Source of the DNA: Roseimicrobium sp. ORNL1
Lineage (GTDB): Bacteria > Verrucomicrobiota > Verrucomicrobiia > Verrucomicrobiales > Verrucomicrobiaceae
Reading direction: 5' to 3'
Assembly (NCBI RefSeq): GCF_011044495.1
Contig: NZ_CP049143.1
Span: forward strand, 7,006,001-7,070,000
DNA: 64,000 nucleotides
The translations under genes and the position numbers were made by a program. The first letter of the stretch is position 1. Each line of letters begins with the position of its first letter. A model generated the notes under the pieces. The model ran no database searches and was not told the origin of the DNA. It saw nothing but the letters and a program-made list of their open reading frames with translations. Positions 5,460-60,469 of the stretch are shown here, in pieces.

Positions 5460-6023
5460 ATGCCTGACTCAGATTCCATGCCTGTTGGCGACGATAACGC
5501 TTTGGAGTTGCAGCTCTTCCGTGAGCTGAACCGGCTTGGCGCCCGATACATTGTGGTCGGCAGTCATGCCATGAGGCATCATGGTGCGGATGTGCCGCCC
5601 CAAGAAGTGGCGCTTCTGATCGACGGTGACCTGGAACACCAGCGTGTGGTCTTGCAGGCGCTGGATACCATGCCGGAGAAGGCAGCGCAGGAACTCCAAG
5701 GTGTTGATCTGCGTGAGTACACCGAAGTGCACGTGGCAGACAGGGTGCTTGTGAAACTGGCGACCAACTTGTGTGGCATCACCTATGCGGATGCTGCTGC
5801 GGAGATAGAATGGGAAGAAGTGGACGGCGTTCGCATTCCCTATGCCTCGCTGGTCATGCTCTGGAAGACCAAACAGAACCACCTCGAAGAAGATGAAACG
5901 GATCGCATCTTTCTTCGGGAGAAATTGAAGGGCATTCTTCCTGAGGAGGAGTTGCATTCCTCACCGGTCACAGAAGGAACCTCCGAGGGATTTCTTGGGC
6001 AGATCTGGCGGAAGATTTTCTAG
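5460..6023 (+). CDS. Nucleotidyltransferase-fold-like protein, apparently without catalytic DxD
   Basis: A 187-residue soluble protein. The segment LFRELNRLGARYIVVGSHAMRHHG resembles the start of MNT/AbiEii-type nucleotidyltransferases (helix, strand, GS motif, helix). The following strand, which should carry the metal-binding Asp-x-Asp, reads PPQEVALLIDGD and lacks that pair in the usual place. The later part (VLVKLATNL, VRIPYASLVMLWKTK) fits the same fold. I placed the start at 5460 because the frame upstream of it runs through a dispersed repeat. No toxin or antitoxin partner is adjacent. It may be a non-catalytic relative; the family assignment itself is tentative. Confidence 0.55.
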   Translation: MPDSDSMPVGDDNALELQLFRELNRLGARYIVVGSHAMRHHGADVPPQEVALLIDGDLEHQRVVLQALDTMPEKAAQELQGVDLREYTEVHVADRVLVKLATNLCGITYADAAAEIEWEEVDGVRIPYASLVMLWKTKQNHLEEDETDRIFLREKLKGILPEEELHSSPVTEGTSEGFLGQIWRKIF

Positions 6024-6086
6024 GCGCACGCCTGCTCTTCGACAATTCGCGTGCCAGTTTCGCTGCCCTGTGCCACTAATGGGCCC

Positions 6087-7307
6087 ATGGCAATCGTCGT
6101 GCAAAAATATGGCGGCAGCAGCGTGGCGGATGCGGACAAGATCCGCGCTGTGGCGAAGCGGGTGATGGAGACCCAGAAGGCAGGGCATCAGGTGGCCGTG
6201 GTGGTTTCTGCCATGGGCGATACCACGGATGACCTGCTCACCCTCGCGAAGAAGGTGTCCACGAATCCGGAACGCCGTGAGCTGGACATGCTGCTCTCCG
6301 TGGGGGAACGCATTTCCATGGCGCTGCTGTCCATGGCGATTCGCGAATTGGGCGGAGATGCCATCAGCTTCACCGGCAGCCAGGCGGGCATCGTGACGAA
6401 TGACCGCCACATCGATGCGCGCATCATCGAGGTGCGCCCCTTCCGCGTGCAGGATGAGCTTTCGCGCGGGAAGATAGTGATCATCGCAGGGTATCAGGGT
6501 GTATCCTACCGCAAGGAGATCACCACGCTGGGACGCGGTGGCAGTGACACCACGGCTGTGGCCATGGCGGCGGCATTGGATGCCGAGTGGTGTGAGATTT
6601 GTTCGGATGTGGACGGCGTGTACTCCGCGGATCCACGCGTAGTCCCTGCGGCAAAGCGCATCCCCACCATGGCCTATGAGGAGATGCAGGAGATGGCCGA
6701 GGCCGGCGCGAAGGTGCTGAATGCGCAAGCCGTGGAATTCGCCAAAGAGCGCGGCATCGCCATCTACGCGCGCGCCACGAAGCAAGCGCCTCCCGGCGCG
6801 GAAGAGCCCACCGACAGCACGGTGGTACGGAAGTTTGGTCCCAACGTGCCGGGACGTGTGGTGGGCGTGGCTAGTGAGAAGGATCTCTTCTTGCTGGATG
6901 CTGCGAGTGGCGCAGATGCCGTTCTGGAGTTGCTGGATGAGCTGTCGGTGGTCGGCAAGCAACTGCACGTGGCCACCTCGGGCGATGGCGCGAACAGCCT
7001 TGCCATGGTCATCTCCCGGGAGAATCTGCACGATGAAGCACGGCTGCGCGCGAAACTGCAGGAGAAGTTTGGCGATACGGTGAAGCTGGAGGATGGAATC
7101 GGCGCGGTGAGCGTGGTCGGCACCGGCATCACCACGAACTACAAGAACCTCCGCGCCGGCTCTGCTGCCTTGGCCACGCATGGCGTGCTCGGGATTTCCA
7201 CCTCACGTTTCCGCATCACCTGGCTGGTGCCACTGGCGGGTGTGGATGATGCGGTGCGGAGATTGCATGCAACGTTCCTGGAGGCAGAGGGGGAGGTGGT
7301 GCCGTAG
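6087..7307 (+). CDS. lysC: Aspartate kinase
   Basis: A 406-residue protein that phosphorylates aspartate, the first step to lysine, threonine and methionine. The start at 6087 gives the canonical [19 protein letters not shown]; an upstream ATG at 6051 would only add 12 atypical residues. The amino-acid kinase domain contains the nucleotide and substrate motifs GGSSV and [14 protein letters not shown]. Two C-terminal ACT domains follow (about 265-405), so allosteric feedback by end products is expected. The length matches single-function bacterial aspartokinases. A 406-codon open frame on the opposite strand is a shadow. Confidence 0.95.
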
Positions 7308-7374
7308 ACGTGCGTCCTCGGACTCCAGTGTATGCAAATCCAAAGTTGAAATGAGCGTTCCAGCCACGTGATCC

Positions 7375-7938
7375 ATGAATCCAGAGTTGCCCATCACCTC
7401 AATCTCGGATGCGAAGGAATATTTCCAACTCAAGGGGTGTCAACACATGCACATGCAGCGAGATTTTCCTGCACGGTATGAGGAGTACCGCGCAATGGGA
7501 ATTGGGAAGGAGCAGGAAACCGCATGGGCATTTGAGGCAGCCACCGAAGGCCTTGCGCATTTGGAGAGCGATGGGGTGGACCGCGATGAAGCCTGGTGGC
7601 GGCATTCCCATGTCGAGGATTTGATCGTGCAGCGACGCTTCCATGGTCTTCTTGGACGCCTCCTTAATGCCACAGCGGTGATCCAACCGCTGCTTTCGCA
7701 AAGGGATCGACTGCTGGTTGCGGAGACCATTGTGGGCAGGGTGGATCCAAAGTGGCGAAGAGGGCTGATCTTTCCAAGCCACGATTTCGGCGAGCACGAA
7801 GTCGCGAGGGAATTCGCCCAACAAGCCCGGAATCTGGTGGCGGAGGCGTTTGAGGATCCAAAAATGGAAACTCGCCGAACTGCCTTATTGGAGAAATGGA
7901 GAGACGTGACGGTGCAGTGTGGGATCCGGAACATTTGA
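7375..7938 (+). CDS. Hypothetical protein
   Basis: A 187-residue protein of a family I do not recognise. It has no signal peptide or membrane segment and is rich in Glu, Arg and Trp (AWWRHSHVEDLIVQRRFHGLL), with a mostly helical appearance. The sequence MHMQRDFPARYEEYRAMGIGKEQETAW near the N-terminus looks like a protein-interaction helix pair, but that is impression only. It sits between aspartate kinase and the sulfatase, all on the same strand, with no close coupling. Coding probability rests on length, composition and lack of a better alternative frame. Confidence 0.6.
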   Translation: MNPELPITSISDAKEYFQLKGCQHMHMQRDFPARYEEYRAMGIGKEQETAWAFEAATEGLAHLESDGVDRDEAWWRHSHVEDLIVQRRFHGLLGRLLNATAVIQPLLSQRDRLLVAETIVGRVDPKWRRGLIFPSHDFGEHEVAREFAQQARNLVAEAFEDPKMETRRTALLEKWRDVTVQCGIRNI

Positions 7939-7984
7939 AAAGTCGTGCGATCTGGCTGGAATTTTCTGCGTTTCTCGTCGCAGA

Positions 7985-9688
7985 ATGACCCCCATGAAAC
8001 TACGTTTCCTCGTCTCCACGCTGCTGCTTTTGCCCGTGTTTCTGAAAGCAGCCGACAAGAAACCCAACGTCCTCTTCATCGCCGTGGACGACTTGAAGCC
8101 GACCATCGGCAGCTTCGGGGACTCGCATGCGAAGACGCCGAACATCGACCGTATCGCGGCGAAGGGCACGGTGTTCACGCGCGCGTACTGCATGCAGGCG
8201 GTGTGTTCGCCGTCGCGCAATGGGGTGCTCACCGGACTGCGGCCCGAGGTGCTGCAGATCTATGATCTGGGTACGAACTTCCGGAAGCGTGCCCCGGAGG
8301 TGGTGACGCTGCCGCAGCACTTCAAGCAGCAAGGCTGGCAGAGCCACGGCGTGGGCAAGATCTTCCACGTGGGTCATGGGAACAATGAAGACGCCGCTTC
8401 GTGGAGCGTGCCACACTTCCAGGCAAAGAGCATTGGCTACGCGCTGGAGGAGAACAAAAAGTCGCTCACGCGCGAGGAAGCGCTCTTCGACAACAAGGCG
8501 GCGGGCAAGCTGCCCAAGGGCGCGGCGTATGAGTCCGCGGATGTGCCGGATGATGCCTATGGCGATGGCAAGATCGCGCTGGAAGCAGTGAACCGACTGC
8601 GTGGCTTCAAGGAGAGCGGGGAGCCCTTTTTCCTTGCGGTGGGTTTTGTGAAGCCCCACCTGCCTTTCTGCGCGCCGAAGAAGTACTGGGACATGTATGA
8701 TCCGGCCACGCTGCCACAACCTGACCGCGCCACACCGCCGGACGGTGCACCGTCCTACGCACCCACCTCATGGGGTGAGTTGCGCCAGTACCTAGGCATT
8801 CCGGAAAAAGGTGCACTGCCTACGGACCTCACGCGCACCCTGATTCACGGCTACTATGCGGCCACGAGCTACATGGATGCGCAGCTGGGCCTCGTGCTGG
8901 ATGAGTTGGAGAAGCTCGGCCTGGCAGAGAATACGGTCATCGTGCTCTGGGGCGATCACGGCTGGCATCTGGGCGACCACGGCATGTGGTGCAAACATTC
9001 CGACTATGAGCAGGCTACGAATGCCCCACTCTTGTTCTCCGCACCCGGGAAAAAGGGTGGCCAGAAGTCGAGCGCGGTGGTGGAGTTCAATGATATCTAT
9101 CCCACGCTTTGCGATCTCGCTGGCATCGCCAAGCCTTCGCACCTGCAGGGCACGAGTCTGGTGCCGCTACTCGATGATCCCAAGGGCAGTGTGAAGCCCG
9201 CTGCTTTCCAGGTGTATCCGCGCAGCACCCCTGAGACCGGGCCACTGCTGGGTCAAGCGATGCGGACGGAACGCTGGCGTTATGTTGAGTGGCAAAAGGC
9301 GGATAAGACCGTCGCGGATCGCGAGCTATATGACATGCAAAGCGATCCCGGCGAGACGGAGAACCTCGCGAATAAATCGGAGCATGCCGCCACCGTGGCC
9401 GAGCTTTCCGCGATGATGGCGAAGCGTCTGAGTGAAGCACCTCCTTTGGGACTGAAACTGCTGGATCGCAGCAAGCCCCAGTCGAATACGACACCTGCCA
9501 ATGCGAAGAAACCCAAGCAGGATCGCAACGCGATGTTCAACAAGCGCGATAAGGACCAGGACGGCAAGCTGACGAAGGAGGAGTTCCTCAAGGATCAGCC
9601 GGATCCTGAGGAAGCACCGAAGCGTTTTCCAAAGTTCGACAAGAACAGCGATGGTTTCCTGAGCCGCGAGGAGTTTGTGGGGAAGTAA
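7985..9688 (+). CDS. Secreted sulfatase with C-terminal EF-hands
   Basis: About 567 residues. A signal peptide (MKLRFLVSTLLLLPVFLKA) is followed by the alkaline-phosphatase-fold sulfatase domain: metal-binding NVLFIAVDDLKP and the active-site C-x-P-S-R motif (AVCSPSRNGVLTG), whose Cys is converted to formylglycine. Later HGWHLGDHGMWCKHS fits the iduronate-2-sulfatase-like group. The C-terminus adds two EF-hand loops, DKDQDGKLTKEEF and DKNSDGFLSREEF, a fusion common in PVC bacteria. The likely role is desulfating polysaccharides outside the cytoplasm. Starts at 7985 or 7994 are both possible; neither has a clear ribosome site. No maturase gene is in the window. Confidence 0.92.
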   Translation: MTPMKLRFLVSTLLLLPVFLKAADKKPNVLFIAVDDLKPTIGSFGDSHAKTPNIDRIAAKGTVFTRAYCMQAVCSPSRNGVLTGLRPEVLQIYDLGTNFRKRAPEVVTLPQHFKQQGWQSHGVGKIFHVGHGNNEDAASWSVPHFQAKSIGYALEENKKSLTREEALFDNKAAGKLPKGAAYESADVPDDAYGDGKIALEAVNRLRGFKESGEPFFLAVGFVKPHLPFCAPKKYWDMYDPATLPQPDRATPPDGAPSYAPTSWGELRQYLGIPEKGALPTDLTRTLIHGYYAATSYMDAQLGLVLDELEKLGLAENTVIVLWGDHGWHLGDHGMWCKHSDYEQATNAPLLFSAPGKKGGQKSSAVVEFNDIYPTLCDLAGIAKPSHLQGTSLVPLLDDPKGSVKPAAFQVYPRSTPETGPLLGQAMRTERWRYVEWQKADKTVADRELYDMQSDPGETENLANKSEHAATVAELSAMMAKRLSEAPPLGLKLLDRSKPQSNTTPANAKKPKQDRNAMFNKRDKDQDGKLTKEEFLKDQPDPEEAPKRFPKFDKNSDGFLSREEFVGK

Positions 9689-9720
9689 AACAGAGGAACT
9701 CACCCAGCACGTCGCCACAG

Positions 9721-9875
9721 GCCCAAGGATCGGGAACGCCTCGTTCCCGTCAGCGGGCACCACGCCTGGTGGTCATGCAACCCGAATCCCCTCAGTGAGC
9801 TTGTACGGGTACCCAGGTGGCGCCAAACCATGAACCTTGTCACCCAGGGGAACGAGGCGTTCCCCCTCCTTGGGC
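9721..9875. repeat. Long inverted repeat with internal palindromes
   Basis: Arms at 9721-9748 and 9847-9875 are complementary over about 28 nt, and each arm also contains its own palindrome (GGGAACG-CCT-CGTTCCC type). A further hairpin, CACCA-CGCC-TGGTG, lies inside near 9759-9772. It occupies the 277-nt gap between the convergent sulfatase and esterase genes, in which I see no coding sequence. Confidence 0.8.
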
Positions 9876-9965
9876 CTATGCGATGTACGCGCGCATAGAT
9901 GCCCTCTGGGGCATGAGACAGGTTGGGCATCCAGTATCATGCGGACGCTCGGTTTCCCGACCGGT

Positions 9966-10958
9966 CTACGTCCCCTTCGCCGTAAGCTGCTTCACCAGGA
10001 AGTCCCACGTGTTGGCATATTCTTCCGTGGGATGGTCCAGGTATTTCACATAACACTTCACGCCTTTCTCCTGGGCCAGCTTTTGGAAGCCAAGGCCCCA
10101 CATCGGTGCATGCACCTTGTAGTTGGACTCGGTCACATCCTTGGGCTGGGTGAGGCCCCATTCGTTTTCGAAATAGATGGGGGCCACGCCGGGATGCAGC
10201 AGATAGTCGGGTGACCATTCCTTTATCACGGGGAGCAGTTCATCCCGACGCACGAGGGATTCCTCGAACTTGCAGCCCAGTGCCGGTGCGCCCCACTGCA
10301 CACCCGCCACCCACTCCTGCATGCGTTTGGGATCGATGCTCGGCTGGCTGCGGAAGGCGGCAATGGCAACCACGCGTGTGGAGTGTTTCTCAACAGGGTC
10401 CGTGGCGTCAGGCTTGGCCCGGTCGGCAGAACAGCCCACGTAGAGTGCGGGGAGGCTGCCTTGTGAACCGCCACCTACCGCAATACGCTCGGGATCGAGC
10501 CCCCAGGCGGCGGCCTTTGACCGCACAAACTGCACCGCCCGGCACGCGTCGTCCATCACATACGAGATGGGAGGGAATACGCCGTCCTGGGTGGCTTCAC
10601 CCATGGTGCGTGTTTGCACTCCGATGACAGCGCAGCCAGCCTTGAAGAAGGGAGTGCAGTCTGGCACATTTTTGGCAGGCTTCCAGATGCCTCCGAACCA
10701 GATCAACACCGGGCAGGTACCACGTGGCTCGCGTGGCAGGTAGACATCCAGCAACTGAAGCGGACTCGGGCCGTACGACACGTCTGCATGGGAAGGAAGC
10801 GGCTTACCGGGAGGTGCGGCCTGCAGAGAGTCCTTGGGAATCTGAATAAGGAATACGCTGCACAGGAAAGCGGCGGCCATCCATGTGCGTGAATGATTCA
10901 ACGGAAGGGCAAAGGGCATGAGAAAAGGAATACGCGGGCATGTGGCGCCCCTTCTCAT
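9966..10958 (-). CDS. Secreted alpha/beta hydrolase (esterase/lipase type)
   Basis: Up to 330 residues, with a signal-like hydrophobic stretch (AAAFLCSVFLI) before the mature region. The alpha/beta hydrolase core shows the nucleophile elbow GGGSQGS after DPERIAVG, a pattern typical of BD-FAE/acetyl-esterase relatives. The oxyanion motif, usually HGGG, reads WFGGIW here. A late DHPTEEYA may supply the catalytic His. The ATG at 10958 overlaps the stop of the AraC gene by 4 nt (ATGA), which suggests translational coupling; a start at 10919 would give a more usual signal peptide. The substrate is unknown. Confidence 0.75.
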   Translation of the reverse strand: MRRGATCPRIPFLMPFALPLNHSRTWMAAAFLCSVFLIQIPKDSLQAAPPGKPLPSHADVSYGPSPLQLLDVYLPREPRGTCPVLIWFGGIWKPAKNVPDCTPFFKAGCAVIGVQTRTMGEATQDGVFPPISYVMDDACRAVQFVRSKAAAWGLDPERIAVGGGSQGSLPALYVGCSADRAKPDATDPVEKHSTRVVAIAAFRSQPSIDPKRMQEWVAGVQWGAPALGCKFEESLVRRDELLPVIKEWSPDYLLHPGVAPIYFENEWGLTQPKDVTESNYKVHAPMWGLGFQKLAQEKGVKCYVKYLDHPTEEYANTWDFLVKQLTAKGT

Positions 10959-11695
10959 CCCTGATTGCGCATCCTGAACTGTTTCGGCGTCATGCCGGTG
11001 CGTTTGCGGAACTGCTGGGTGAAGGCGCTCTGGTCGCAGAAGCCGTGGTTCAGCGCGATCTCAATGATGGGCGCAGACGTCTTCGCCAGGGACTCCGCAG
11101 CAGACTGGATGCGCGTGCGCAACATGAGCTCGTGAGGTGTGAGACCGAGAGTGGCTTGAAGCTGGCGGTGCAGATGCCGCTCGGAAACGCCGGCGGCTTT
11201 GGCGAGTTCAGCGGTGGAGACGTTCTTGTCACAGTTCTTCCGCGCATACTGCACGGCTGCGGTGACTTCACGCACGTCGTGATGGCGCATGCGGTCCTCA
11301 TCGCGGCGCGTGATGCCCATGACGCCGATGACCTGGCCCTCCTTGTCCAGCACAGGGAGCTTGGTGGTGAGGAACCAGTCAAGATTCCGCTGCTCGTCGT
11401 ACCAGACTTCGAGGCGGTTGATGAGCGGCTTGCGGCTGCGCATCACCATCTGGTCGTCCTCGCGGAAGGCCTGCGCGAGCTCCGCGGGGAAGAACTTCTC
11501 ATCCATGGCGCCCACCAGTTCCCGCTCGTTCTTGATGCCAAACCGGGTAAAGGTCACGCTGTTCGCCGCAATGTGCCTGCCGTGAGCATCTTTCACAAAA
11601 AAGAAGACGCCCGGCAGGTGCTCAAAAATGGCCCGAACCCCCTGTGGATCGGCCATGCGGGCGAAAAAGTCCGCCTGAAGACGCGGTGAAGCCAT
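10955..11695 (-). CDS. AraC-family transcriptional regulator with N-terminal PAS domain
   Basis: A 246-residue regulator. Residues about 15-130 form a PAS domain (GVFFFVKDAHGRHIAANSV and LDKEGQVIGVMGITRRDED), a likely sensor for a small ligand. Residues about 145-246 form an AraC DNA-binding unit with two helix-turn-helices, the first around TAELAKAAGVSERHLHRQL and the second around ALNHGFCDQSAFTQQFRK. It overlaps the downstream esterase gene by 4 nt and probably controls it. It is divergent from the cytochrome c protein gene, about 105 nt between starts, which makes that gene a second candidate target. Confidence 0.9.
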   Translation of the reverse strand: MASPRLQADFFARMADPQGVRAIFEHLPGVFFFVKDAHGRHIAANSVTFTRFGIKNERELVGAMDEKFFPAELAQAFREDDQMVMRSRKPLINRLEVWYDEQRNLDWFLTTKLPVLDKEGQVIGVMGITRRDEDRMRHHDVREVTAAVQYARKNCDKNVSTAELAKAAGVSERHLHRQLQATLGLTPHELMLRTRIQSAAESLAKTSAPIIEIALNHGFCDQSAFTQQFRKRTGMTPKQFRMRNQG

Positions 11696-11799
11696 GGCGG
11701 GATTTTAACAAACATTGGCAGGCTGTCACCAAACAACCGGCGGGCTTTGAAGGTATTTATCGGCGCTATTCTTCCCCCGAAATCCGCCCGCCCGCTCCT

Positions 11800-14370
11800 A
11801 TGGTCAAGCTCACCCGCCAGCTCTTCCTTGCTGCCCTCTTAAGTCTGTCGTCCGCCGTTGCGCAAGAGAACGTCGAGTTCCCACCGAAACCTCCGGTAAA
11901 ACCGCTCTCACCGAGCGAAGCCGCGAAGACCTTCCAGCTTCCTCCGGGTTACCGGCTCGAGCTCATCCTCAGCGAGCCGGAGATCGTAGACCCGGTGTGC
12001 ATGGCCTTCGATGGCAATGGCCGCCTCTATGTGGCGGAGATGCGCACCTACATGCCGGACATCGATGGCACGAATCAACTTGTGCCCAACAGCCGGGTTT
12101 CCGTGCACTGGTCCAGCAAAAACGATGGCGTGTATGACCAGCATCGCATCTTCGCGGACAAGCTCATGCTGCCCCGCCTCCTGCTCCCACTCGCGGACGG
12201 CATATTGATTGGCGAGACGGATACGAATGACATCCACCTCTACAAGGACACCAATGGCGATGGTGTCAGTGATGAGAAGAAGCAGGTGTATCAGGGTGGC
12301 CCACGCGGTGGAAACCTGGAGCACCAGCCCAGCGGTCTCACGTGGGCGAATGACAACTGGCTCTACACGGCGGTGAACAACTACCGCCTGCGCTGGAAGG
12401 ACGGCCAGCTCATCAAGCAGGACATTCCCGGCAATGGCGGCCAGTGGGGCGGCACGCAGGATGATGACGGCAAGTTCTGGGTGGTGAATGCCGGTGGCGA
12501 AAAAGGCCCGTTGAACTTCCAGCAGCACATCCTCTACGGACAGTTCGCCACGAGGAATCAATTCGAGCCAGGCTTCGAAGTCGTGTGGCCCGCGATGGGC
12601 TTGCGCGACTACCAAGGCGGCCCCGGCAAGTCCCGCGATGACGACACACTGAACCACTTCACCGCGACCTGCGGCGGTGAAATCTACCGCGGTGACCAGC
12701 TCCCGGCGGAACTGAAGGGGAACCTCTTCTTTGGCGAACCGGTGGGCCGCCTCGTGCGCCGCAGCACCATCGAGGTGAATGATGGCATCACCATTCTGCA
12801 TAATCCCTATCCGCAGAATGAATTCCTCCGCAGCTCGGACGCCTGCTTCCGTCCAGTGGACATGAAGACGGCGCCGGATGGCACGCTCTACATCGTGGAT
12901 ATGTATCGCGGCATCATCCAGGAGGGAAACTGGACACGTGACGGCAGCTACCTGCGCAAGGTAATCCTGCAGCACAGCATGGACAAGATCATCGGTCGTG
13001 GCCGCATCTGGCGCCTCGTGCACGAGAGCACGAAACCCGTGCCCGCTCCGAAGCTGATCGATGCTTCACCCAAAGAACTCGCCGCGGCCCTGGCGCACCC
13101 GAATGGCTGGTATCGTGACACGGCCCAGAAGATTCTGGTGCTGAAACAGGACAAGAGCATCGCCCCCACCCTCGCGGAAATGGTGCAGAAGCATGAGAAT
13201 GCCCTCGCTCGTATCCACGCCTTGTGGACGCTGGAAGGACTGGGTGCGCTCACTCCGGACATCATCCGCACCGCGCTGAAGGACGCCTCGCCACAAGTAC
13301 GTCGCGCCGGCATCCGCGCCAGTGAGTCGCTGGTGGATGAGAAGCTGCAGCAGGACGTGATGGCCCTCGCCAAGGACAGCGATCCCTCCGTGGTGATTCA
13401 GGTCTGCCTCACGGCGAAGCTCATGAAATGGAAGGACTACGCGAAGTTCGTGAACCTCGCGGCACTCGGCACGCCTTCCAAAGGCGTGAAGGACATCGCC
13501 ACCCAGATCCTCACGAACAGCGCAGAATTCCCCCGCGAACTTGGCGGCACACAGAAGGAATCCATGCACCGCGGCCAGGCAATCTTCCAGGAGTTGTGCT
13601 TCACCTGCCACGGCCTCGATGGCAAGGGCACGGCGATCGACGGACCCACCGGTCCCATGTTGCTCGCGCCACCGCTCTCCGGCTCGAAGGTGGTCATGGG
13701 GCATCGCGATGGCCTCGTCCTCGCCCTACTGCACGGCGTGACCGGTCCGGTGAATGGCAAGACCTACCAAGCACAGATGATTCCCATGGCGAACAACCCG
13801 GACGAGTGGATCTCCGATGTACTCAGCTATGTGCGCAATCGCTTCGGCAACGCCGGCACCTTCATCGAGCCCAAGGACGTGGCTCGCGTGCGCAAGGAAT
13901 ACCAGGCCCGCACGGCACCCATGACGGAGGAGGAAATCTTCGCCTCCGCCCCGCCCGTGCTGATGAACCGCAAGAACTGGAAACTCACCACCAGCGAAAA
14001 GGCAGATGGTCTGGCTGGGTGTGTCGATGGAGATCTAAAGTCCAAGTGGACCAGCGAGAAGCCCTTGAACAACGGCATGTGGCTCACCATCGAGCTGCCG
14101 GTGGAATCCACCATCAATGGGCTGCGTTTCTCCTTCAGCGCGGGTGGCGGTTACCTCTCACGAAACCTACGTGTGGAGACATCTGCCGATGGCAAAGCCT
14201 GGAGCAAGCCGGTCTACAATGGCGGCGCGACCACGAACCTGACCGAGATCGCCTTCTCCCCTACCAAGGCGAAGTTCATCAAGATCACGCAGACCGGCGG
14301 TGGCGACAAGCGCACCCCATGGAACATCCATGAGGTGGACGTCACCACGCCCCGAAACGCGATGCCCTGA
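11800..14370 (+). CDS. PVC-type membrane-bound dehydrogenase-like protein with HEAT repeats, cytochrome c and discoidin-like domain
   Basis: About 856 residues with a signal peptide (LFLAALLSLSSAVAQ). The N-terminal beta-propeller begins LPPGYRLELILSEPEIVDPVCMAFDGNGRLYVAEMR, the PVC membrane-bound dehydrogenase type, related to glucose/sorbosone dehydrogenases. HEAT-like helices follow (about 410-560), then a class I cytochrome c with Cys600-x2-Cys603-His604 (CFTCHG) and a Met-containing loop. The last 125 residues resemble an F5/8 type C (discoidin) carbohydrate-binding fold. A likely periplasmic oxidase or dehydrogenase handing electrons to its own heme. The start at 11800 is set by the signal peptide; the open frame extends upstream to 11644. 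Confidence 0.85.
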   Translation: MVKLTRQLFLAALLSLSSAVAQENVEFPPKPPVKPLSPSEAAKTFQLPPGYRLELILSEPEIVDPVCMAFDGNGRLYVAEMRTYMPDIDGTNQLVPNSRVSVHWSSKNDGVYDQHRIFADKLMLPRLLLPLADGILIGETDTNDIHLYKDTNGDGVSDEKKQVYQGGPRGGNLEHQPSGLTWANDNWLYTAVNNYRLRWKDGQLIKQDIPGNGGQWGGTQDDDGKFWVVNAGGEKGPLNFQQHILYGQFATRNQFEPGFEVVWPAMGLRDYQGGPGKSRDDDTLNHFTATCGGEIYRGDQLPAELKGNLFFGEPVGRLVRRSTIEVNDGITILHNPYPQNEFLRSSDACFRPVDMKTAPDGTLYIVDMYRGIIQEGNWTRDGSYLRKVILQHSMDKIIGRGRIWRLVHESTKPVPAPKLIDASPKELAAALAHPNGWYRDTAQKILVLKQDKSIAPTLAEMVQKHENALARIHALWTLEGLGALTPDIIRTALKDASPQVRRAGIRASESLVDEKLQQDVMALAKDSDPSVVIQVCLTAKLMKWKDYAKFVNLAALGTPSKGVKDIATQILTNSAEFPRELGGTQKESMHRGQAIFQELCFTCHGLDGKGTAIDGPTGPMLLAPPLSGSKVVMGHRDGLVLALLHGVTGPVNGKTYQAQMIPMANNPDEWISDVLSYVRNRFGNAGTFIEPKDVARVRKEYQARTAPMTEEEIFASAPPVLMNRKNWKLTTSEKADGLAGCVDGDLKSKWTSEKPLNNGMWLTIELPVESTINGLRFSFSAGGGYLSRNLRVETSADGKAWSKPVYNGGATTNLTEIAFSPTKAKFIKITQTGGGDKRTPWNIHEVDVTTPRNAMP

Positions 14371-56117: not shown

Positions 56118-57809
56118 TCAGTTTTCGACCTTCGGCGTCGAATCCTCCGCACCCTTGATCACTGTTTGCTTCTTGGAGCGCTTGGTGGACACAGGGGCCG
56201 CTGGAACTCTGGATGCGGCAATCTCTTCCGCGGTGGGGTAGGACCATACCCAATCCCCTTCGTATTGCCTGTTGGTAGGCTTGTCCCGGTAGCTTCCGGT
56301 GGAGGGTCGGTGGCCATTGTCATCCTTTCCATCAAAGCCCACGGCCCAGAGCACATACCGGCCACCTGTGGTCTTTCGATATCCCATGGGTTTGCCGGAA
56401 AGAATATCCAGAGGCAGTGGCTTCTCTCCGGCACGCGCCAGTTCCGTAAGAGCATCGGGATAAGCACCTCGCTCCAAGCGAAAGCGCTCGAGCGCACACG
56501 CAACGATGGCACGGTCCAAAAAGCTCTGCGCATACGCGGCCCGATCTACAAATCTGGTAAACGCGGGCATGGCGAGCACAGCCACGATCATATCCGTGTG
56601 GCGCCAGATTTCTGCCTTTGCCGCTTTGAGACGTGCTTCCAACCGTTCCCCCTCCACCAGCGAAGACGCCCACCCACGATCGCGCAGAGGTTTGACAATG
56701 TACTCAAGATTAAGTGTCGCGACATGCGCTGCGTTTGAGTCGAACCAGCCTTCTGGCACAAGCCACACTAATTTTTGCATAGAATCCCAGCTGGGCTCGT
56801 CCAGAGAGGAGCTGGGCAGCTGCCGATTGCGCTTCAAGTAGAGGAGGGAATCCACTCCCGCGACGATCTCCTGCTTGAAGGCACGCACGGCATCCTGACG
56901 GAGGTCGAACTTCTCTAAAGCCTGCTGCAAGCGCAGGAAATCATCTGCCGTGCCGCAGTGAGCGGTTCCGAGTTCCCACGTGGTCTGCGAGAGAATGGAC
57001 GCGGAAGTCACGCCCACCAACAAACCGATCAGATGCGGCTCCTGGCAGGTCGCCTCCGCAATCCTTGCAAGGCAGAGAGTCGCTTCGTGAGCCCTGGCAT
57101 ATTCACCCGCCTGTGCGGCTGCCTTCGCACGCAAGCTGAGACCGTTTGAAAAGCTTTGCAACGCACCGAGGTGGGGCACCTGGAGCTGCAGCAGAAGCTC
57201 TGGGAAGGGTCCCAAGCGCCAGTCCGGGGTCAGCCGGGAGTGAGGACGAAAAAGAGCGGCCACCATCTCCGCAATAGCAGCGTCCTGATACGACATCGCC
57301 CCGAGCACTTCACGCGCGGCGTTGTCTGGGTCCGTAACCGGCATGGGGTGGCCTTCCTTCCGCAGCCAGTCCGCCCACTCCCGGAGATTCACCGGCATGT
57401 CGGTGTCCTTTGATGAAATGGGTGGATAACTGCCCGTGTGAGACTTGAGGGGCCCGAGAGCTTCCAAAGCTTTGCGTTTGGCAGCAGACTCGCCTTTCGC
57501 AGGATTACCATCTTCGATGATCGCAAGGCCTTTCAACAGGGGAATGGCGCAAAAATTCAACTCATCCGGGATTTCCACGATTCCCTTCGCCGACCTGAAG
57601 TCCAAGTCGACACCTTCGCGGGCCAGCGCTTCCTGCGCCGCCTTCCAATCACGCTTTCCCGCACGGTTCATCCATACGGTCAGTCCCACGTATACCATCA
57701 AGATGCCGACGCCAATCCATGCCAGGATGCGGATCCAGCGTGCACGCCAACAACGTTGAAGGAAGGACACGATTAGGCAGAAGGGGGTGAGTGTCATCAC
57801 GATGAACAT
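56118..57809 (-). CDS. Membrane-anchored hypothetical protein B of twin pair
   Basis: A 563-residue protein with one N-terminal membrane helix (RILAWIGVGILMVYVGLTVWM) and a large outside domain. It is a tandem paralogue of the next upstream gene: shared strings include NFCAIPLLK, AAKRKALEALG and YQDAAIAEM. The end (VACALERFRLERGAYPDALTEL, then GRYVLWAVGFDGKDDNG) resembles the C-terminal domain of type II secretion major pseudopilins. It follows the sigma factor operon. The start could be inside (M5); function unknown. Confidence 0.7.
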   Translation of the reverse strand: MFIVMTLTPFCLIVSFLQRCWRARWIRILAWIGVGILMVYVGLTVWMNRAGKRDWKAAQEALAREGVDLDFRSAKGIVEIPDELNFCAIPLLKGLAIIEDGNPAKGESAAKRKALEALGPLKSHTGSYPPISSKDTDMPVNLREWADWLRKEGHPMPVTDPDNAAREVLGAMSYQDAAIAEMVAALFRPHSRLTPDWRLGPFPELLLQLQVPHLGALQSFSNGLSLRAKAAAQAGEYARAHEATLCLARIAEATCQEPHLIGLLVGVTSASILSQTTWELGTAHCGTADDFLRLQQALEKFDLRQDAVRAFKQEIVAGVDSLLYLKRNRQLPSSSLDEPSWDSMQKLVWLVPEGWFDSNAAHVATLNLEYIVKPLRDRGWASSLVEGERLEARLKAAKAEIWRHTDMIVAVLAMPAFTRFVDRAAYAQSFLDRAIVACALERFRLERGAYPDALTELARAGEKPLPLDILSGKPMGYRKTTGGRYVLWAVGFDGKDDNGHRPSTGSYRDKPTNRQYEGDWVWSYPTAEEIAASRVPAAPVSTKRSKKQTVIKGAEDSTPKVEN

Positions 57810-57871
57810 TCACCCCTCGCCCTGCAAGCATTTCATGCTGGGGTGCTGACCGCACCCCACGGAGGAGCGCC

Positions 57872-59452
57872 CTACTTTCCCGAGTACTCCCACACCCAGT
57901 CGCCCTTGTACGCCGCCCGGTTGGGCTTGGCGGCATCGCCCTTGGCATCCTTGTCAGGTCCTTTGCCGCCATCGTCGGTGAGGTCAAATCCTACGCTCCA
58001 GAGCTTGTAGCGTCCGTCCCCGGTCTTGCGATACTTCATGGGCGTTCCACTCATCGGGTCCGTGGGCAGAGCCTTGCCGTTGGTGCGCTTGAGCTCGTCC
58101 AGAGATTCCGGATAAGTGCCCTTCTCCGCATAATGGCGCTCCAGCGCGCAGGCGATGATGGCCTGATTCACGAGGCATTGCCCGTAGACCGTCGTGCCGG
58201 TGATGTTCAACAACGATGGCATCACCAGTGAGGGGAAGATTTTGTCGAGATTTGTGGGCCAGTTAGCCTTGGCAAACATGAGGTCACGCTCCATGTCCTG
58301 CTCCCGGTTCAACACCCCCTGCCATCCTTCATCACGCAAGGGGCGGATGACGTAGTCCAGCTCCATGTGCACAATGTTCGCTGCATTCATGTCGAAAAAT
58401 CCGGAGGGAAGCAGAAGCATCGCAAGGCCGCCGCCGGCAGACTCGCCCTCTTTCAACGGGGATCTGATGATGGAGAGCACGGAGGAGTCGCGGCTCCGCT
58501 TGAGATACTTGAGGGTCTCCACCCCCCCTGCCAGTTCGCAGTTCCAGGCACGGAGCGCCGCCTCATGAAATTCCAACCGCTCCAAATCACGCTGCAGCTT
58601 TTGAAAGTCCTCCGCAGTGCCTGTGTGTGCCTGGCACAGAGTCCACACTACGCTGGTCGTCTGGACAGCAGCGGCCCGGTACACAAGGAAGCCGATAAGA
58701 AAAGGTTCCTGGCCGATGGCTTCGCTCAGGCGCGCCATGATCCGCGCAGTCTCGTGGGCTTTTGCCGCCTCACCGGCATGGGCCGCTGCGGTGGCCCGTA
58801 ACGCGAGGCCGCCGATCGCCTTCTGCAATCCTCCGTAGTGCGGAATCTGTATGGCGAAAATGAGCTCGGGGATTTTACGATCCGTGGGCGCTGGCTGGAA
58901 TTGGGCATAGGGACGCTCCAGTGTGCCGGCCATCTCCGCCACAGCAGCATCCTGGTACGCGAGAGCCGCCAGGATTTCGCGAGCAGGATTCTCCGCATCC
59001 GTCACCGGCATGGCCATCTTCATTTCACGCAGCCACCTGGCCCAGTCACCCATCTGCTTGGCGGCGTCCTCACCGGACTTGAGCTGGACAGAGGGGCGGC
59101 CCATGCCGGACGGCGATTGATTTCCGTCAGGCAACCCCAGTGCCTCCAGTGCCTTCCGTTTGGCGGCGGGTTCACCCTTGGAGGCGTCGTCATCCACCAC
59201 CACCGCGATATCCCGCAACAAGGGGATGGCGCAAAAGTTCTCCGCGTCCGGCACGGGAGCCGTCATTGTCTGCCGGAAGTCGAGCGTGAGATTCTCGTCG
59301 CGGACACGTTGCTGAGCGTCGCGCCACACGCGGGCGCCGGTCCAGTTCACCCACGCGACACACAGTGTGGTCAAGGTCACCAACGTGATGAAGGTCCAGG
59401 TGAGGCCGCGAATCCAGCGGCGCTGCCAACAGCGTTTGAGAAAGGCAATCAT
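57872..59452 (-). CDS. Membrane-anchored hypothetical protein A of twin pair
   Basis: A 526-residue protein with one N-terminal helix (GLTWTFITLVTLTTLCVAWV) and the same layout as its downstream paralogue: NFCAIPLLRDIA, AAKRKALEALG, YQDAAVAEMAGTL, the long helical middle, and a pseudopilin-like end (IIACALERHYAEKGTYPESL; GRYKLWSVGFDLTDDGG). Its ATG overlaps the stop of the anti-sigma-like gene by 4 nt. It probably acts with the sigma factor as sensor or output. Unknown family. Confidence 0.75.
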   Translation of the reverse strand: MIAFLKRCWQRRWIRGLTWTFITLVTLTTLCVAWVNWTGARVWRDAQQRVRDENLTLDFRQTMTAPVPDAENFCAIPLLRDIAVVVDDDASKGEPAAKRKALEALGLPDGNQSPSGMGRPSVQLKSGEDAAKQMGDWARWLREMKMAMPVTDAENPAREILAALAYQDAAVAEMAGTLERPYAQFQPAPTDRKIPELIFAIQIPHYGGLQKAIGGLALRATAAAHAGEAAKAHETARIMARLSEAIGQEPFLIGFLVYRAAAVQTTSVVWTLCQAHTGTAEDFQKLQRDLERLEFHEAALRAWNCELAGGVETLKYLKRSRDSSVLSIIRSPLKEGESAGGGLAMLLLPSGFFDMNAANIVHMELDYVIRPLRDEGWQGVLNREQDMERDLMFAKANWPTNLDKIFPSLVMPSLLNITGTTVYGQCLVNQAIIACALERHYAEKGTYPESLDELKRTNGKALPTDPMSGTPMKYRKTGDGRYKLWSVGFDLTDDGGKGPDKDAKGDAAKPNRAAYKGDWVWEYSGK

Positions 59453-59832
59453 GGGATGTCGAATCGGGTGGTGGTGGCGTCTTTGCTCAGTTCACGATGA
59501 AACGCGAGCAGGGTGAGGGATGAGGCGGCGGTGGAATTCGCGTGTGCGTCCGCCTTGGCGGCTCTCTTCGCTTCCACGAGCTGAGGTGCAGTCCTGATGG
59601 GGGTGGAGTCAGCGGGCGTGCTAAAGCGCAGGAGCGCAATAGCGACCCATGCCGTGCACCACACCGTCATGAGCCAGCGCGGCGGCAGAACTCGGCGCGG
59701 CGTCACAGCCGATGCTTCTGCTTCACGCCTGGCGCGGGCGAGGATCTCAGCCTTCCACTGCGGTGTGGGATCGGGGCGCGGCATGGCTCCTGCCAGCGAC
59801 TCGAGTTTCTTTTCAAAAGCGTCGTCGTTCAT
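59449..59832 (-). CDS. Putative anti-sigma factor, single membrane helix
   Basis: A 127-residue protein. The short N-terminal cytosolic part (MNDDAFEKKLESLAGAMPRPDPTPQWKAEIL) is followed by one membrane helix (WLMTVWCTAWVAIALLRFS, about 53-71) and an Ala/Thr/Ser-rich outer part. Its position directly after an ECF sigma gene with a 4-nt overlap, and a 4-nt overlap with the next gene, is that of an anti-sigma factor. There is no zinc-finger anti-sigma motif, so the call is by context. Confidence 0.6.
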   Translation of the reverse strand: MNDDAFEKKLESLAGAMPRPDPTPQWKAEILARARREAEASAVTPRRVLPPRWLMTVWCTAWVAIALLRFSTPADSTPIRTAPQLVEAKRAAKADAHANSTAASSLTLLAFHRELSKDATTTRFDIP

Positions 59833-60335
59833 GTCAGTTCCTCGTAAAGCGGACGCAGCACGGTCCGCAGTTTCTCCAGGCCGTAGCGGTAGCGGCTCGC
59901 GGCGGTGTTCAGCGGAATGCCTTGTGCCTCCGCGATTTCTTCAAAGGTCATGCCCTCCCAGAGCTTGAGCTGCATGACCACACGCTGGTCCTCCGGCAGG
60001 GACTTCATGGCCTCGGCGAAATGCCGTGCCATCAAGACGGAGTCCGGGTCGGTGGCTGGGTGATGCCCAACTTCCATTTCCTGAAGAAGCTTCTCCTCCG
60101 CATCCCAGCGCGTCTTCCGCCGCCTCAGCCAGTCCACCGCGAGATTGTGCGCCATGCGGTAGATCCAGGCCTTTTCGCTCAGCACCCCTTCCCTCGCCGC
60201 TCCCCGTGCAAGTTTGATGAAAAGCTCCTGCAGCAGGTCCCGCGCATCCGCCTCCGTCTTGGTGAAGGTGACCAGATAATGGAACAAGCCGCCCGCATGG
60301 GTGTCATAGAGGCGCTCCAGTTCACGGTCAGTCAT
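59829..60335 (-). CDS. ECF-type RNA polymerase sigma factor
   Basis: A 168-residue sigma-70 family member from the start at 60335 (MTDRELERLYDTHAGGLFHYLV). Region 2 is in ADARDLLQELFIKLARG and KAWIYRMAHNLAVDWLRRR; region 4 is in LPEDQRVVMQLKLWEGMTFEEIAEAQGIPLNTAASRYRYGLEKL. It heads a four-gene unit with 4-nt overlaps: sigma, anti-sigma-like, protein A (protein B follows after 62 nt). Autoregulation from upstream is expected. Confidence 0.92.
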   Translation of the reverse strand: MTDRELERLYDTHAGGLFHYLVTFTKTEADARDLLQELFIKLARGAAREGVLSEKAWIYRMAHNLAVDWLRRRKTRWDAEEKLLQEMEVGHHPATDPDSVLMARHFAEAMKSLPEDQRVVMQLKLWEGMTFEEIAEAQGIPLNTAASRYRYGLEKLRTVLRPLYEELT

Positions 60336-60469
60336 GGCGGTCGTCACAAGGATGATGCGGCAGTCGGGTTCGCTTGCCAAGACGCATGAGGGCCCCGAGT
60401 TTGTCTGACTACCGGCAAACTTTCTGTTTTTTCCTTGTCCCCCACATTGTCCAAGTCTATGTCTGCGAC

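Follow-up and report, generated by a model that had tools for sequence, protein, structure and literature searches.

The DNA analyzed in this study (hereafter the window) is a 64,000-nucleotide stretch of the Roseimicrobium sp. ORNL1 genome (Verrucomicrobiota, family Verrucomicrobiaceae; NCBI RefSeq assembly GCF_011044495.1, contig NZ_CP049143.1, positions 7,006,001 to 7,070,000 of the forward strand). It carries an operon encoding an extracytoplasmic function (ECF) sigma factor, a putative membrane anti-sigma factor of 127 amino acids (aa), and two long paralogous membrane proteins, twin1 and twin2 (Table 1). Comparison with related loci identified a conserved sigma circuit that is preceded by a promoter-like motif and, in many lineages, carries a second copy of this motif inside the sigma gene itself. 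A preliminary description of the window, made from the sequence alone, had listed the sigma factor, a membrane anti-sigma-like protein, and two long paralogues as tightly packed with 4-nucleotide (nt) overlaps. The open reading frames (ORFs) agree with this gene content, and the overlaps (ATGA) join the sigma gene to the 127-aa gene and the 127-aa gene to twin1, while twin1 and twin2 are separated by 62 nt.

Table 1. Features of the sigma operon, in window coordinates
Feature	Coordinates	Strand	Basis or remark
ECF-type sigma factor, 168 aa	59829..60335	minus	ORF translation; Pfam and NCBIfam profile matches
Putative membrane anti-sigma factor, 127 aa	59449..59832	minus	About 53 residues, one predicted membrane helix, short tail
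Twin1, 526 aa	57872..59452	minus	N-terminal membrane helix, helical domain, pseudopilin-like C-terminal domain
Predicted pseudopilin-fold domain of twin1, residues 395-526	57875..58270	minus	Structure prediction and fold match (PulG 1t92)
Twin2, 563 aa	56118..57809	minus	Paralogue of twin1; arose by duplication in the lineage of the genus
Pseudopilin-like domain of twin2, about residues 398-525	56235..56618	minus	Alignment to the twin1 domain; NCBIfam gspG E value 0.002 (residues 409-464)
Predicted operon promoter	60379..60407	minus	-35 CAGACAAA (60407-60400); 17 nt from AGACA to CGTC; -10 GCGTCTT (60385-60379)
LEKLRTVLRP codons near the sigma C-terminus	59850..59879	minus	Place of the embedded second motif copy in 34/80 relatives

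The window sigma factor matches the Pfam domains Sigma70_r2 (E value 2e-12; 47.1 bits, cut-off 24) and Sigma70_r4_2 (5.8e-11; 42.3 bits, cut-off 25.7) as well as the TIGR02937 model (79.9 bits, cut-off 42.9). It is a clear two-domain ECF factor with regions 2 and 4 only. It may belong to one of the 157 published ECF groups (Casas-Pastor et al.). The source genome contains 46 matches to the sigma70-ECF model, 38 of them above the cut-off, and by coordinates only the window sigma factor among them adjoins a twin.

The 127-aa protein has one hydrophobic stretch, whose best 19-residue segment starts at residue 54 with a mean Kyte-Doolittle value of 1.5, just below the usual membrane threshold of 1.6. 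It has no Pfam match and only a weak match to an NCBIfam anti-sigma model (E value 8.8e-5; 22.6 bits, cut-off 100). Anti-sigma factors of class II (CnrY type) embrace the sigma2 and sigma4 domains with two short helices. About 53 residues precede the membrane helix in the window, approximately 41 to 47 in many family relatives, and more in distant ones; this N-terminal part fits class II in length. Class I domains (ASDI) consist of a three-helix bundle and a fourth helix, and domains shorter than 50 aa have been set aside as possible class II members, according to PMC7406223. A search of Protein Data Bank (PDB) sequences with the anti-sigma profile did not recover CnrY and returned unrelated proteins with E values of 0.9 to 1. 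Position, architecture, and the sub-threshold profile match point to a putative anti-sigma role for this protein.

The conservation of the unit was examined in the best 80 of 179 sigma relatives (down to 47% identity), which come from records of Verrucomicrobium, Prosthecobacter, Brevifollis, Chthoniobacter, and many uncultured Verrucomicrobiota. The long protein is encoded downstream of the sigma gene in 78 of the 80 loci, far above chance, and in the remaining two the contig ends 819 and 294 nt past the sigma gene. The anti-sigma profile matches (E value ≤ 0.01) just downstream of the sigma gene and ahead of the long protein in 73 of the 80 loci, with the sigma and anti-sigma genes overlapping by 4 nt in 53 of the 73 loci measured. 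When 41 stretches were examined from the long-protein side (the window, L021, and L042-L080), sigma factor, anti-sigma factor, and twin occurred in this order in 30; the other 11 contained orphan twins, a contig end (L074), or no twin (L045). Conservation of the gene order elsewhere in the phylum, proposed in the preliminary description as a check, is thus observed in several families.

The conserved unit is the sigma factor, the anti-sigma factor, and a single long protein. Two long paralogues are indeed present in the window, but the pair highlighted in the preliminary description is not essential. A second long protein lies beside the first in only 5 of the 30 sigma-bearing stretches, with one copy in the other 25. 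In the phylogenetic tree, the twins of the window and of its sister species form one group (support 100/99), distinct from that of the G065 and G067 pairs (99/97); the pairs in the genus of the window and in that of G065 and G067 are therefore separate duplications. The twin pair was therefore rejected as the defining feature of the system. Extra downstream copies of the long protein are also present in L113, L120, L140, L154, and L161.

Relatives of twin1 (E value ≤ 1e-10) were found in 51 of 68 family genomes. The twin1 profile matched in 128 of 288 genomes drawn from the order (E value ≤ 1e-10) and in 20 of 387 drawn from the phylum (E value ≤ 1e-20). The sigma clade (E value ≤ 3e-49) is present in 9 of these 387 phylum-sample genomes, and the long protein is adjacent in all 9, as judged from match coordinates for 8 of them and from the L184 stretch for G139. 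Twenty chosen regions were also inspected, with ORFs of at least 100 aa listed. Seven of the nine lower-score sigma genes fetched (L194-L196, L198-L200, and L203) have a twin-family gene downstream, and L201 and L202 have no long protein beside them. L192 displays the same gene order with a very different sigma factor (E value 1e-14). These loci extend the association beyond this sigma clade. In L195 and L198, no ORF of at least 100 aa is listed between the sigma gene and the long protein.

The long-protein family also occurs without the sigma system (L042-L044, L075, L078, and L079; likewise L190, L191, and L193 without a related sigma factor), which suggests that it has a use of its own. L044, from the source genome (C1:5722001-5741000), contains five adjacent twin-family ORFs on the plus strand (5766-12694); neighboring frames overlap, with starts picked mechanically, and no related sigma gene is present in this 19-kb stretch. 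L075, L078, and L079, from one genus of the family, each contain an orphan twin relative that is the sole match in its genome. It lies just upstream of what we take to be an rpoA-like gene, presumably accompanied by an rplQ-like gene in L075 and L078.

Twin1 and twin2 are 43% identical over 524 columns, and each has one strong N-terminal hydrophobic stretch (mean Kyte-Doolittle values of 1.8 and 2.1). The type II secretion pseudopilin-like end assigned to them in the preliminary description is clear by predicted fold, while sequence matches stay under the cut-offs: Pfam T2SSG gave an E value of 0.21 on twin1 and no match on twin2, and NCBIfam gspG gave 0.046 on twin1 and 0.002 on twin2 (residues 409-464). 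Against solved structures, the twin1 sequence yielded one match of no use (E value 0.74), and its profile yielded five matches with E values of 0.12 to 2, none significant; four of these five are pilin-like and fall at similar profile positions. A five-model AlphaFold2 prediction of twin1, made with 22 other sequences, reached a mean pLDDT of 87.9 and a pTM of 0.88. In the model, residues 2-52 form a long N-terminal helix; there is also a helical domain, and a long helix (402-444) precedes a small beta part. With the whole model, Foldseek found generic helical repeats and nothing at an E value of ≤ 0.001. A second-look alignment placed EpsG over residues 417-522 (Z score 7.8, root mean square deviation [rmsd] 2.7, 87 residues), alongside unrelated helical entries at similar Z scores.

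The last 132 residues of twin1 were also predicted alone (pLDDT 86.8). Foldseek itself ranked a major pseudopilin first with an E value of 0.019. In a second-look alignment of Foldseek's own list, all 29 entries among the matches listed are pilins or pseudopilins. The top six are major pseudopilins (Z scores 8.7 to 7.8), led by PulG 1t92 (Z score 8.7, rmsd 2.5, 85 aligned residues of a 108-residue target, 19% identity). In light of these predictions, the C-terminal end of the long protein is modeled as having the major-pseudopilin fold. Mostly acidic and aromatic residues near this end are invariant in 23 sequences (D490, D493, D494, G517, D518, W519, and W521), and we presume that a calcium site like that of GspG is possible there. 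A prepilin is recognized by an N-terminal leader with a GFTLIE-like motif and a hydrophobic helix directly after it. No such signal was found at the start of the long protein, which reads MIAFLKRCWQRRW followed by a membrane helix, and the pilin-like helix appears only at approximately residues 402-444. The long protein is therefore not itself a pseudopilin by the usual definition, and its assembly into a pilus by the usual route is unlikely. Its helical domain is probably periplasmic.

A bipartite motif, which was missed in the preliminary description, precedes the sigma gene in most loci. The 77 upstream regions analyzed came from 75 of the 80 loci (four of the other five had no start motif, and one was too near a contig end), the window, and G001. 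AGACA-N17-CGTC is present in 51 of 56 non-redundant upstream regions, while the maximum for any such motif pair was 4 in a control consisting of one mononucleotide-shuffled set. Two of the 56 have a spacer of 16, and no other spacer between 10 and 24 was found. The consensus is YAGACAAA-N15-CGTC, followed by any base and T, and the spacer-17 form is present in 72 of the 77 regions; the window copy matches at 60406-60381, inside 60407-60379. From its position ahead of the sigma gene and its -35/-10 layout, this motif is likely an autoregulated sigma promoter.

The motif was also searched beyond the upstream regions. Across the 842 kb of the 80 loci, with the spacer allowed to vary by one base either way, it occurs 100 times: 65 upstream of the sigma gene, 34 in the sigma 3′ end, and once elsewhere, at what is the upstream site of an over-extended ORF. 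A reversed control, whose spacing was one base off, gave one match. The strict form matched 94 times in 67 family genomes (34 at the operon and 60 elsewhere; 40 control matches), and YAGACAAA-N15-CGTC matched 58 times in 20 genomes (32 at the operon and 26 elsewhere; 17 control matches). In G141, G116, G632, G633, and G634, only the two operon copies were found. The operon is the one recurrent predicted target, and other places show a small excess of matches over the controls. Strict motif matches in the family genomes and the 20 genomes give no support for a large regulon.

Orphan paralogues were considered as further targets and rejected: nine of the 12 stretches scanned have no motif-like match, and L043, L045, and L079 each show a single place, represented by two rows in L043, where the -35 or the spacing is imperfect; these were not taken as promoters. 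Motif matches in L171 (source genome, near C1:409033) and L174 lie near or inside pilin-like genes with GFSLPEVAIA and FTLVELLVS starts, which we take to be of the Verru_Chthon cassette type; these matches are probably due to chance. In L171, another ECF-type sigma gene lies beside the pilin-like gene on the other strand. In G631, the same 27-base match recurs on three contigs, as a repeat or mobile element would give.

The stretch encoding the sigma C-terminus was located in all 80 genes (74 in the first pass). In 34 of them, the [LI]DK codons near the 3′ end (mostly within [LI]DKLRxxLRP) spell the upstream motif with the same spacing, and seven further loci (L184-L189 and L197) carry this embedded copy as well. 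It is placed just before the anti-sigma gene, at a median distance of 24 nt (range 6 to 429; 32 measured) with anti-sigma starts picked mechanically. The codon before GAC AAA ends in A (TTA, CTA, or ATA) in 34 of the 41 genes in which the remainder of the motif is present and in none of the 39 others (Fisher's exact test, 5e-16). Among representatives below 75% identity, the counts are 21 of 25 and 0 of 11 (2e-6); relatedness weakens both P values. Such codons otherwise account for 4.6% of Leu and 4.6% of Ile in the sigma and long-protein ORFs of those loci. The first base (T, C, or A) and the amino acid (Leu or Ile) vary in the embedded copies, while TAGACAAA stays, a pattern of codon constraint. 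In L203, which holds a diverged operon of the same kind, a motif copy (position 2343) is found at the 3′ end of the ORF between the sigma gene and the twin, just before the twin.

We consider it somewhat more probable than the opposite that, in loci with the embedded copy, the codons specifying the end of the sigma factor's DNA-binding region also hold a promoter recognized by that factor, so that one DNA stretch would be selected both as protein code and as a start signal for the brake and the pseudopilin-tailed output, in a circuit almost without other targets. Could the embedded copy instead be a by-product of conserving the peptide [LI]DKLRxxLRP, or some other DNA or RNA element? In favor of this are the wide conservation of the peptide, the frequency of GAC and AAA codons there (60% of Asp and 50% of Lys), and the lack, in most copies, of the T that follows the upstream -10. 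The peptide, however, leaves the TTA, CTA, and ATA codons unexplained, and other well-filled Leu/Ile positions have at most 2 A-ending codons. CGT is used in 34 of 34 copies, compared with 12.5% of Arg codons, partly owing to how the set was defined. [LI]DK elsewhere in the sigma and long-protein ORFs spells the motif in 0 of 9 cases, after removal of 2 of 11 that belong to the upstream site of over-extended ORFs. Moreover, the embedded sequence and spacing equal those of the independent upstream site. A by-product or another element is a very doubtful explanation.

At the level of the whole operon, we give about an even chance to an ECF sigma circuit that is self-contained and has the pseudopilin-tailed long protein as its output and possibly also as its sensor. 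The membrane anti-sigma factor would hold the sigma factor at the inner membrane until an envelope signal frees it. The free sigma factor would then recognize YAGACAAA-N15-CGTC and transcribe chiefly its own operon, with one start ahead of the sigma gene and, in the many lineages that carry it (the window does not), another at the embedded copy before the anti-sigma and long-protein genes. If transcription by the sigma factor is mostly confined to its own gene, the brake, and the long protein, then the long protein, with its helical domain and predicted major-pseudopilin fold, would be the main output; it has been duplicated in the genus of the window. Because it is encoded beside the anti-sigma factor and no sigma locus of this clade with enough contig lacked it, the long protein would probably double as a sensor in the periplasm or a feedback partner, in the way of CnrX with CnrY and CnrH.

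If the long protein were instead mainly a dedicated sensor, as in CnrYXH, it would bind the membrane or periplasmic part of the anti-sigma factor and make it release the sigma factor on a signal, and a wider regulon would be read from looser promoters. The trio is similar (a sigma factor, a short one-helix anti-sigma factor, and a membrane-anchored protein), and PMC4598750 describes CnrX of Cupriavidus metallidurans as a periplasmic sensor thought to switch CnrY. The constant presence of the long protein in the 80 loci and the 4-nt overlaps, which in the window extend to the anti-sigma/twin1 junction, are also in line with this explanation. The profile search of PDB sequences, however, returned no CnrY relative, the strict motif reveals no large regulon, and the long-protein family persists without the sigma factor; we regard a dedicated sensor as possible, if somewhat unlikely. 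Less likely still is a long protein without any part in signaling, a structural envelope or secretion-assembly protein whose amount is set by the sigma and anti-sigma factors. In favor of this role, no other non-regulatory gene recurs behind the motif, copies without the sigma factor exist as orphans and in tandem, and the C-terminus of the long protein is predicted to have the major-pseudopilin fold. Nevertheless, its gene keeps close to those of the regulators instead of being dispersed over a regulon, and usual pilus assembly is unlikely without a prepilin signal.

Several observations weigh against a self-contained circuit with an embedded promoter. The window has no embedded copy, like 46 of the 80 relatives; at this site it keeps the CGTCC half and not the -35 half (CTG GAG AAA). 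The T two bases past CGTC, found in 94% of upstream sites, is mostly absent in embedded copies (23 C, 8 T, and 3 A). The 4-nt sigma/anti-sigma overlap occurs in 16 of 32 loci with the embedded copy, versus 37 of 41 without it, and readthrough would do in the overlapping loci that have the copy. Five of the 77 upstream regions lack the spacer-17 motif (two have a spacer of 16, and three have none). Because the consensus derives from sites of the operon itself and the searches were strict, weaker targets may have escaped notice, and the 60 non-operon versus 40 control matches in the family leave room for some targets. One motif site is kept in both genus members despite diverged flanks (G000:C1:1215941 in L223 and G001:C1:441525 in L222), roughly 80 to 130 nt before a gene whose product, of 310 to 324 aa, has one hydrophobic stretch, at the N-terminus, and another rich in proline; a second target at this site is plausible. 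The anti-sigma assignment is likewise putative, drawn from gene position, protein architecture, and a profile match below the cut-off.

The observation made in the preliminary description thus mostly holds, and its interpretation, an envelope-signal system in which the twins "sense or respond," is partly supported. The promoter evidence favors "respond," since the long protein lies in the only recurrent predicted target, and leaves room for "sense." The analysis brings to light a conserved sigma circuit of Verrucomicrobiota whose clear predicted promoter can be tested in cultured strains such as Verrucomicrobium, Brevifollis, and Chthoniobacter. In it, an ECF sigma factor is tied to a protein that uses a secretion-pseudopilin domain away from any pilus. 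If the embedded promoter is real, a regulator gene would provide a clear-cut example of dual coding; in circuit design, there is also a use for orthogonal sigma/promoter pairs that have few targets in the genome. No description of such a sigma operon with a pseudopilin-tailed protein was found in the open literature, as judged from titles and the beginnings of abstracts, nor was one met in passages of PMC8103513, PMC7406223, PMC8999054, and PMC4598750.

CnrYXH is laid out as an operon, single membrane helices are found in its proteins, and its third protein binds Ni/Co. Like this nickel-cobalt signaling system, in which an ECF sigma factor, a membrane anti-sigma factor, and a periplasmic sensor work together (for CnrX and CnrY, PMC4598750), the operon described here combines three such components. 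No sequence relation to CnrYXH was found by the anti-sigma profile search of the PDB or the structure searches with the long protein, and here the third protein is far longer, with a helical domain and a predicted pseudopilin fold, and the sigma gene comes first. RpoE-RseA-RseB also comprises a sigma factor, a membrane anti-sigma factor, and a third protein on the periplasmic side. RseB, unlike the long protein here, is not a helical/pseudopilin protein, and the RpoE regulon is large while the one predicted here is small. The last 132 residues of twin1 resemble GspG (PulG, EpsG), the major type II secretion pseudopilin, in predicted fold; in contrast to GspG, the protein begins with neither a prepilin signal nor a pilin helix, and the domain ends a 526-aa membrane protein. 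A -10 of the CGTC type, as predicted here, is an ECF type. The sigma factor resembles classical ECF factors with neighboring anti-sigma factors in having regions 2 and 4 only and predicted autoregulation, and it differs from them in its constant long third gene, its -35 of the AGACAAA type, and the motif copy inside the sigma gene (34/80). What appears to be new, compared with these systems, is the unusual constant third protein in an ECF/anti-sigma system and the self-embedded promoter-like copy in many lineages.

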